Below are positions 3,074 to 35,418 of a DNA stretch of 35,418 nucleotides, piece after piece. Origin of the DNA: a virus. The notes beneath the pieces are model-generated. The model had not been told where the DNA came from. It made no database searches and worked only from the letters and a program-made list of their open reading frames with translations. The position numbers and the translations under genes are program-made. The number at the start of each line of letters is the position of its first letter. Position 1 is the stretch's first letter. Location: IMG/VR virus record IMGVR_UViG_3300020125_000100, positions 1 to 35,418 of that record; one strand, written 5' to 3'.

Positions 3074-3427
3074 ATGTCATCACAGAATAATTGCAAGCTT
3101 CCTGCTTATTCAAAGCCTTTATTTGACTTGATTCAATCAGGTCAGCGTCCAAATAATTCTATTAATGTATTTATAGGTCAACTTGCCTGGCAGAAGGGGA
3201 GGGTGTTTTCTGTAAGCTATCCAACAAGAACCATTGTTTTGCCGCCCTGGGATGATCCTTTGCCATTCTATTGGCCAGTTCCGACATGTGATGTTTTGGT
3301 GCATGATACTGGATACGCAGAAACAAATTACCTAGAAGATTTAGTGTTTAGTTTGCTCAGGGACGGAGCTTCTATTGTCAGAACTGTGTCACCTGAATTT
3401 TTATTAACCGTTTTCCACAAGGAATAG
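3074..3427 (+). CDS. Hypothetical protein, 117 residues, next to the helicase
   Basis: Not recognised. It is rich in Pro and Trp (PPWDDPLPFYWPVPTCDVLVHD) and has no membrane span. Its stop lies 4 bases before the helicase start, so it is probably co-expressed and may help replication start. Its ribosome site is weak (AAAGG about 13 bases upstream of the ATG). Confidence 0.65.
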   Translation: MSSQNNCKLPAYSKPLFDLIQSGQRPNNSINVFIGQLAWQKGRVFSVSYPTRTIVLPPWDDPLPFYWPVPTCDVLVHDTGYAETNYLEDLVFSLLRDGASIVRTVSPEFLLTVFHKE

Positions 3428-3431
3428 TGTC

Positions 3432-4583
3432 ATGACTCATCCTAATGATAAAGTTATAAATATGGGCGATAAAAGAAAATCACAACACCAATCTGGTGTA
3501 ATTGATTTATATAAATTAAATGTATTAAATGCTGATGAAATTATACCAAAAAAACAACCTTGGTTATGGCAAGATTATATACCATTAGAGACCTGCACGC
3601 TTCTCGCTGGAAAGGGTGGAATTGGTAAAAGTCAGTTATTAATGTTTATGGCTTCAATGGTAAGTAATGGCAGTCAATTTGAGATTAACTCTAACAAACA
3701 TTCTATTCAAAAAGGTAAAGTATTAATTTTATCAGCCGAAGATCACAATGCTTATACTATTGTTCCACGTTTAAAAGCAGCAAAAGCAAATTTACAAAAT
3801 ATTAAAATCATCGATTCAGCTGTGAATGCAAATGACGGTCTTAATGAAAGATTCATTACTTTAGATAATGATATTAATTTATTGCAATCAACTATTAATG
3901 AAATAGATGATGTTCGTTTAATCATCATAGATCCGATTACAGCTTACATTGGCAATATAAAAGAAAATCGTTCATCAGAAGTTAGGGCTTTTATTTTAAA
4001 GCTTAATCGTCTTGCAGAACGTAATAATTTAGCGATCATTCTTAATACCCATACTAGAAAATCTTCTGGAAGTGGCGATGGTCCTACATCTGCGGCTGAT
4101 GAAATCATGGGATCTAGTGCCTGGGCCAATACTGTTCGATCGTCTTTTTCTGTCAGTAAAGATCCTGAAAATGAAGATTCCTTCTTGTTCATATCATCTA
4201 AAACCAATTACAAAAAACCTGAAGGTTTGTCATACAAAATTGAATCTTTTGATCTTATAGAAGGAGAAGAATCTATCGTTACATCCAATATCCAATGGAA
4301 AAATTGCAAAGTTGATATAACAGCGGATGAGGCTGTAAATATTAAATCTTATGAAAATAAATTAGCTATTGATGAAGCTAAAGAATTCATTTTAGATCAA
4401 TTAAAGTTCGGAAATAAAGAATATAAAATAATTTTAGCTCAAGCATTTGACGAAGGAATTACTGCAACGACCTTAAAACGTGCTAGACAGGCTCTTTCTA
4501 AAGAAGGAACGCCAATAATTATGGACTCCTCCAACTTGGACGCTAGAAAAAGAATCTGGTACATAGGAAATGTAAAAATATAA
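3432..4583 (+). CDS. RepA-like (AAA_25) replicative helicase/ATPase
   Basis: 383 residues. A RecA-type core shows Walker A GKGGIGKS at 60-67, Walker B RLIIIDPITAY around 162-172, and LNTHTRK at 204-210, which resembles the sensor motif of RSF1010 RepA-type hexameric helicases. The region around 345-383 (TATTLKRARQALSKEG) looks like a winged-helix tail. It would unwind DNA for phage replication. The repeat-rich AT stretch directly downstream (4593-4947) is a natural origin candidate. AAGGA lies eight or so bases before the ATG. A recombination ATPase role cannot be excluded, but the genome already has a Sak4-like protein. Confidence 0.75.
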   Translation: MTHPNDKVINMGDKRKSQHQSGVIDLYKLNVLNADEIIPKKQPWLWQDYIPLETCTLLAGKGGIGKSQLLMFMASMVSNGSQFEINSNKHSIQKGKVLILSAEDHNAYTIVPRLKAAKANLQNIKIIDSAVNANDGLNERFITLDNDINLLQSTINEIDDVRLIIIDPITAYIGNIKENRSSEVRAFILKLNRLAERNNLAIILNTHTRKSSGSGDGPTSAADEIMGSSAWANTVRSSFSVSKDPENEDSFLFISSKTNYKKPEGLSYKIESFDLIEGEESIVTSNIQWKNCKVDITADEAVNIKSYENKLAIDEAKEFILDQLKFGNKEYKIILAQAFDEGITATTLKRARQALSKEGTPIIMDSSNLDARKRIWYIGNVKI

Positions 4584-4592
4584 TACATATAA

Positions 4593-4947
4593 TAGCGATC
4601 ATTAGCGATCATTTAAGCGGTTTCAATGCATTTTGAGCCGCTTTTTTTTTATACAAAAATATTTTCTAAACATAGATACACATGATCGCGATCGCTATCT
4701 CTCAAACAGGCGCCAATCCTCAATAAATAGCGATCTTCTGCATATATTATATGCGATCATTTTAAGATATGATCTCTATTATGTGCAATTAATTAACGAT
4801 CACCATATGTATATGATCGCTATATATATATACAATGATCTCTATTATTATTATATATATTAATATGTTATATATAGCGATCAAGATCATCATCCCTGAG
4901 GGTGTTAGAGAAAAAAGAGTTAATTGTATAATTAATTGACGATCATA
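4593..4947. repeat. Iteron-like GCGATC repeat array, candidate replication origin
   Basis: Variants of TAGCGATCAT recur in both orientations: 4593 and 4603 (tandem), 4682-4697 (back to back), 4728, 4752, 4796, 4814 (reverse), 4875 and 4939. Thirteen GATC sites fall in about 350 bases, far above chance. Between them lie long AT tracts (TATATATATA, TTATTATTATATATAT). No gene covers 4584-4967. Repeats plus an AT-rich unwinding zone next to a helicase gene are the usual make-up of an origin. GATC is also the Dam methylation site. The array could instead be a regulator-binding cluster. Confidence 0.68.
4615..4650 (+). terminator. Rho-independent terminator after the helicase gene
   Basis: AAGCGG (4615-4620) pairs with CCGCTT (4638-4643) with extra TCAA/TTGA pairing inside, followed by nine T residues. 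It lies 31 bases after the helicase stop and inside the repeat region. Confidence 0.75.
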
Positions 4948-35291: not shown

Positions 35292-35418
35292 AAAATGGAA
35301 TATCATCATTGAATTCATCTTCAATCTTAGCGCTAGGTAATGGCTTGCCAAGTATCGAAATGACTTTTTCTGATTTAACATAATCTTTTACTGCATTCTT
35401 ATCTGCATAGAACCCACC
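35292..35418. repeat. Terminal direct repeat, right copy
   Basis: Identical to 1-127; the same sequence read twice at the ends of a circular assembly. It lies inside the reading frame of the SSB-like protein. Confidence 0.93.

Follow-up and report, generated by a model that had tools for sequence, protein, structure and literature searches.

The window, meaning the whole stretch of 35,418 nucleotides of IMG/VR record IMGVR_UViG_3300020125_000100, is a phage genome in which a dense array of short repeats directly follows the gene for a RepA-type helicase. This array (4593-4946) is in all likelihood an iteron replication origin that is recognised by the C-terminal domain of the helicase encoded upstream, as comparisons of related sequences and a predicted structure suggest. 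We infer both origin function and binding from this material, and the repeat cluster is very probably the site at which replication of this phage starts.

The proposed origin would comprise about 12 iterons of ten bp, arranged in both orientations around an AT-rich tract at which the DNA would melt. The initiator would be the helicase encoded immediately upstream, whose C-terminal winged helix is proposed to bind the units. Such binding would assemble the RecA-fold motor domain, of the RepA/RadA type, on the origin; the motor would open the AT tract and then leave as the replicative helicase. No separate initiator would be needed under this scheme, and no recognisable RepC- or O-like protein was found among the helicase neighbours searched in this genome. 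Binding, melting, self-loading and the mode of replication, whether bidirectional or other, are the parts of the scheme that we infer.

Genome and repeat array

The genome is complete, as its two ends (1-127 and 35292-35418) overlap exactly over 127 bp, giving a unit of 35,291 bp. This terminal overlap is an assembly overlap of a circle-closing contig and not a phage repeat. A portal and a coat protein of the P22 type are encoded, together with terminase-like genes.

The helicase stop (4583) and the next gene (4968) are separated by 384 bp, which contain 13 GATC sites, and the array begins 10 bp 3' of the stop. At 4593-4946 there are 12 units resembling TAGCGATCAT (at most two mismatches), where the remainder of the genome would predict 0.35. 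Seven lie on the plus strand and five on the minus strand, and each GATC of the array falls within a TAGCGATCAT-like unit. The dense array of GCGATC-type repeats in two orientations that had been predicted from the sequence alone is thereby confirmed. The best exact 7-mer of the array has six copies, compared with 2.4 ± 0.5 (maximum 4) in dinucleotide shuffles, and an unbiased genome-wide k-mer scan placed the densest clusters, for k = 6-8, at the array. Summed over the whole genome, TAGCGATCAT (at most two mismatches) occurs 44 times against 40 by chance, meaning that its clustering, and not its total, exceeds chance. Similarly, the whole genome has only 147 GATC sites against 124.6 expected, so the GATC cluster is local. 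An isolated perfect copy of TAGCGATCAT is also present within the helicase coding sequence (4030-4039, plus strand), outside the array.

The array opens with two tandem perfect TAGCGATCAT units (4593-4612, plus strand), located between the helicase stop and a terminator, and a matching pair occupies the same place in two relatives, L167 and L170. The remaining units follow the terminator. This is the intrinsic terminator of the helicase operon (4615-4650, plus strand), which consists of a hairpin at 4615-4643 and a T-run (dG -12.6 kcal/mol, z -2.97); it was missed by a simple scanner. A terminator embedded in the array had also been anticipated, and its position is kept in L166 and L167 as a hairpin and T-run of different sequence. 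Further downstream are two overlapping inverted units, TCGCGATCAT and TAGCGATCGC (4682-4697, minus strand), followed by TAGCGATCTT and ATGCGATCAT (4728-4760, plus), TAGAGATCAT (4769-4778, minus), TAACGATCAC (4794-4803, plus) and a perfect TAGCGATCAT (4813-4822, minus).

The AT-rich tract (4819-4876), the proposed melting site, includes an uninterrupted A/T run of 24 bp (4843-4866). It is flanked by units, lies toward the right end of the array and itself holds an inverted TAGAGATCAT unit (4835-4844, minus strand). Beyond it come TAGCGATCAA and the partial unit AAGATCAT, which carries the 13th GATC (4875-4890, plus), and lastly TGACGATCAT (4937-4946, plus), which forms the right end of the array. 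When the origin is aligned with those of L170, L167 and L166, the AT-rich tract is the best conserved stretch. A 76-aa ORF that spans the array (4633-4863) was considered and found to have no support as a gene.

The helicase and its neighbouring genes

The gene upstream of the array (3432-4583, plus strand) encodes the proposed initiator-helicase, a protein of 383 aa with a RecA fold of the RepA/RadA type (AAA_25, PF13481; Pfam E 5.1e-30). Its profile matches in the PDB are RadA and RSF1010 RepA, and its AlphaFold model (pLDDT 85.6) has RSF1010 RepA (1nlf) as the best Foldseek match (E 8.9e-11), in agreement with the earlier description of the gene as a RepA-like helicase. Beyond the part that resembles RSF1010 RepA, the protein has an added C-terminal domain (residues 296-383; 4317-4583, plus strand), which is a winged helix in the predicted model and the proposed unit-recognition domain. 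The winged helix (residues about 304-378) has the order helix-helix-helix-strand-strand, with a pLDDT of 93 in the whole model and 89 when modelled alone. In a fold search, this domain resembled the winged helices of MarR/PadR proteins only weakly (best E 0.012).

An alternative is that a separate small initiator binds the iterons and that the helicase is recruited second. Such an initiator could be an RSF1010 RepC-like protein, the product of a 117-aa ORF or a host protein. RSF1010 RepA, which among solved structures comes closest to the motor domain of this phage and with which the phage protein shares the character of a RepA-type helicase, works with RepC at oriV and needs both RepC and RepB as separate proteins (PMC8965321). 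Since RepA is loaded with the help of RepC, an accessory initiator such as the 117-aa ORF may also act here. This ORF precedes the helicase gene (3074-3427, plus strand) and is common to this phage and L026, in which it is 61% identical; it has no PHROG match, and its L026 homologue has none in Pfam or PHROGs. However, in L011, L017, L002 and G002, which have arrays, the gene before the helicase encodes a Toprim primase instead. Furthermore, the helicase is the gene that adjoins every complete AAA_25 array, and the excess of change between L011 and L017 sits in the helicase C-terminal domain. A separate initiator is therefore considered unlikely, and recognition of the array by the helicase itself is preferred.

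No primase was recognised in this phage. Beside the replication operon, on the minus strand, are genes for a Sak4-like annealing protein and a DUF669 single-strand binding protein (457-1329 and 2-460). In a host search against genome contigs, the matches at 62% were short contigs from metagenome bins (Planctomycetota and Thaumarchaeota, one of them a whole contig of ~34 kb), and the remaining matches, at 35-43%, were in Coxiella, Gluconacetobacter and others.

Arrays among helicase relatives

Relatives were gathered from IMG/VR through alignments of the portal, TerL (terminase) and the helicase; a search of IMG/VR by helicase alone found little, the helicase being diverse. Among 14 close helicase relatives compared, an array right after the helicase gene is clear in 13 and degenerate in one. 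Loci with the conserved layout are that of this phage, L166, L167-169, L170, L171, L026, L011, L017, L074, L185, L186, L188, L002 and G002, and the association between array and helicase amounts to about 14 independent loci. This agrees with the original prediction of a plasmid-like iteron origin paired with the helicase. The refuting case named with that prediction, relatives that keep the helicase and lose the repeats, did not occur among these close relatives, in which the array keeps its place and the unit sequence differs.

Unit sequences across the relatives include TAGCGATAA, TAGCGACAT, TTGCGCTCAT, ACGGACAGA, ACCGACAGA, ACTTACAA, TTGGCACG, GGTTAA and others. For example, L167-169 (helicase 55% identical to that of this phage) have TAGCGATAA, L170 (47%) has TAGCGACAT, L171 (39%) has TTGCGCTCAT with AAGCTCAT, and L166 (56%) has a degenerate TAGNGATAAT with 15 sites against 2.3 expected. 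The units GGTTAA in G001 and CTTAACC in G002 both follow an AAA_25 helicase. Others are CGGACAG in G006 (L011), ACCGACA in G010 (L017), CGTGCCA in G012 (L026), GTGCGACAT in L074, ACCGAAT in L185, ACTTACAA in L186 and ACAGACA in L188. Within the clade of the phage studied here, the core TAGCGA is constant and the next two or three bases vary; within the L011 clade, AC..ACA is constant and bases three and four vary.

The k-mer cluster scan found a strong two-orientation cluster just 3' of the AAA_25 gene in this phage and in G001, G002, G006, G010 and G012; in G012, a one-orientation repeat elsewhere outscores the cluster behind the helicase. The best 7-mer in the relatives' arrays reaches 5-11 copies compared with about 2 in shuffles (maximum 4), with L166 at 3, and it never exceeds 3 copies in control intergenic regions. 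L186 and L011 are among the relatives that likewise have units on both sides of an AT-rich region.

Distant AAA_25 proteins (about 23-36%) are mostly without a downstream array. None was found downstream of the primase-fused AAA_25 protein of L190 or within the 252 bp downstream in L192, where the contig ends, and the arrays of L195-L197 are weak or uncertain. A TGGCACA cluster in both orientations does occur in L190 (85-500), about 2 kb upstream of the primase-AAA_25 fusion gene, and may be an origin of this kind that lies elsewhere relative to the gene. In L196, a 96 kb contig of a phage otherwise unrelated in size, a ATCTCGGG cluster (4255-4460; two plus, four minus) follows a distant AAA_25 gene. 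Arrays in both orientations were also observed at contig ends in L123 (GGAGACAA, 104-256) and L116 (ACTAAAC, 40-348), where a VRR-NUC-like region follows and the upstream gene is cut off.

Association with the replication module

The P22-like group has two alternative replication modules, namely an AAA_25 helicase with an array, or O/DnaD-like initiators without one. The latter module is present in G004, G005, G007, G008, G014 and L031, some of which also have a P-like loader. Of these sister phages, the five with large genomes (all but L031) have no two-orientation array, and a limited inspection of O/DnaD genes in sister phages showed no clear repeats within them.

Helicase and portal identities are uncoupled. 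The helicases of L166, L169 and L170 are 47-56% identical to that of this phage, with portals only 30-33% identical, whereas G001 has a portal 81%, a TerL about 80% and a helicase about 19% identical. Neither portal nor terminase similarity predicts the unit. This indicates that helicase and array move together between phage backbones. The layout is not bound to a single motor, since L095 (1860-2106) has an array of GGGTAACC in both orientations at the corresponding position of its genome, there behind a gene for a VapE-type helicase (PF05272).

These observations also bear on whether the array could be an operator, partition or packaging site built from repeated protein-binding sites rather than an origin. 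Short repeats in both orientations are also found in partition and operator sites, and two RHH genes lie near the array (2421-2591 and 2627-2797), whose products the original prediction had named as possible binders. However, the helicase phages L026, L011, L017 and L002 yielded no RHH homologue and array-less sister phages do have them, which does not favour RHH proteins as array binders. With regard to partition, no ParA was found among the proteins searched. The packaging reading was rejected, as the array does not follow TerL: G001 has the unit GGTTAA despite the high TerL identity given above. Instead, the presence of an array follows the type of replication gene. A role other than that of an origin is thus very improbable, and a replication origin remains the preferred reading.

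GC skew was dropped as evidence for the origin. Its cumulative minimum in this genome, at 2855, coincides with a divergent operon boundary, and there is no turn at the array. Array-less sister phages likewise show a skew turn close to where the replication operon begins, and the skew therefore speaks neither for nor against the array as an origin.

GATC sites and Dam methylation

At oriC, GATC methylation takes part in the control of initiation. With 13 GATC sites in about 350 bp, the array could by the same logic be present for methylation, with SeqA-like sequestration or the methylation state timing initiation, and Dam timing had indeed been suggested for it. Its relatives argue against this: they keep the place, the orientation pattern and the AT tract but have only 0-3 GATC sites in their arrays, GATC being frequent only in the phage studied here. 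The unit of the nearest relatives is TAGCGATAA or TAGCGACAT, and when the four origins (this phage, L170, L167 and L166) are aligned, units at matching places read GATC, GACA or GATA. Because the bases that make GATC vary between relatives, GATC is a by-product of the unit of this phage, and because the relatives' arrays have so few such sites, timing by Dam is not a mechanism conserved among them. The array thus differs from a Dam/SeqA-controlled origin, in which GATC is conserved, and no methylase was recognised among the proteins tested. The suggested Dam timing did not hold up and is highly improbable as an explanation of the array, although an effect of Dam in this phage alone could exist if its host has Dam.

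Coupled change of unit and C-terminal domain

The clearest case of coupled change comes from L011 and L017, whose helicases are 94% identical and whose flanking origin sequence can be aligned. Between them the unit core changes array-wide by one base, from ACGGACAG in L011 to ACCGACA(G/A) in L017, so that CGGACA stands throughout one array and CCGACA throughout the other. The helicases differ at 22 residues, with 16 differences in the 79 C-terminal residues against 6 in the 285 before them (P = 1.6e-7). Several of these lie where the proposed recognition helix begins (331, 333 and 337) and in the wing region (349-351). Silent change is equally dense in the two parts (13 of 79 and 39 of 285 codons), and the contrast between nonsilent and silent change gives P 2e-4. 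The primases differ as well (14 residues), and the contrast between C-terminal domain and primase is borderline (P 0.052).

Across eight helicases, unit similarity correlates with C-terminal identity (Mantel 0.67, P 0.007), as it does with the amount by which C-terminal identity exceeds that of the ATPase part (0.46, P 0.029). Part of this signal is due to phylogeny, since identity of the ATPase part is likewise correlated with unit similarity (0.56, P 0.01). The best explanation of these sequence patterns is that unit and winged helix change together between phages, which would give each its own origin specificity.

Comparison with known origins

The origins of SaPI/PICI elements lie immediately 3' of the rep gene and have short iterons in two sets with an AT-rich region between them (PMC6092414), and the C-terminal domain of SaPI Rep helicases recognises the iterons directly downstream of their own gene (PMC7581432). 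The phage studied here likewise has iterons directly 3' of the helicase gene and on both sides of an AT-rich tract. In contrast to the DUF927 or D5/Primase_Cterm helicases of SaPI/PICI elements, its helicase has the AAA_25/RepA RecA fold, with only PF13481 found, and the genome that carries it is not a helper-dependent satellite island but that of a complete tailed phage, which encodes its portal, coat and terminase itself. As both motor superfamily and carrier differ, this origin is not a PICI member, though by analogy the array would work like a PICI origin. Recognition of cognate iterons by the C-terminal domain, as in SaPI Rep, is proposed for this phage with indirect support from the structural model and the covariation described above.

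Other systems share some of these features. SCCmec Cch2 is a self-loading helicase whose C-terminal domain binds short iterons downstream of its gene (PMC7581432), but it belongs to another helicase family and has only three 5-bp iterons. In PLE elements, which are Vibrio phage satellites, the DNA-binding domain of RepA covaries with the iterons and cognate pairs are needed (PMC8263062); in these satellites, however, the initiator is a RepA_N protein and not a helicase, and the three iterons are semi-palindromic and ~30 bp long. Rep_3/RepE iteron plasmids have direct iterons of ~20 bp, unlike the 10-bp units in both orientations seen here, and no Rep_3 match was found among the proteins searched.

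The original prediction was wrong in its statement that iteron-type origins are not known from P22-like phages, since gene 18 carries four repeats of ~20 bp in P22 and six 11-bp repeats in phage L (PMC8022706). In these genes and in lambda O origins, the iterons differ between related phages along with the initiator (PMC8022706), as they do in the arrays studied here. In P22, L and lambda, however, the iterons (~11-20 bp) lie inside the initiator gene, and an O-type initiator is paired with a separate helicase or loader, whereas the array of this phage is intergenic and no O-like gene was found among its proteins tested. What is unusual compared with P22 and L is a short, two-orientation array outside the gene. 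The open-access literature, to which the search was confined, yielded no description of an AAA_25/RepA-type helicase combined with downstream iterons in a full phage.

Implications

There is perhaps an even chance that these loci represent a class of replicons widespread among tailed phages, in which one RepA-type helicase would serve as initiator, loader and replicative helicase through its own winged-helix origin reader. Such replicons would have the SaPI/PICI layout with an unrelated motor and would move between phage backbones as a unit, and their origin specificity would be repeatedly re-coded by concerted change of iteron and domain. If so, the origin layout of satellite islands, described as unique to PICIs, would also be found in full phages, combined with another helicase superfamily, and RepA-type helicases would become self-loading initiators.

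The natural variants, TAGCGA followed by TCAT, TAA or CAT, and AC followed by GG, CG, AG or TT and an ACA-like end, provide a ready set for studying co-evolution of winged helix and site. This series may reveal how a dozen sites change together, and whether competition with satellites or superinfecting phages drives the change. In addition, an array together with an AT tract would be a simple sequence flag for origins in uncultured phages.
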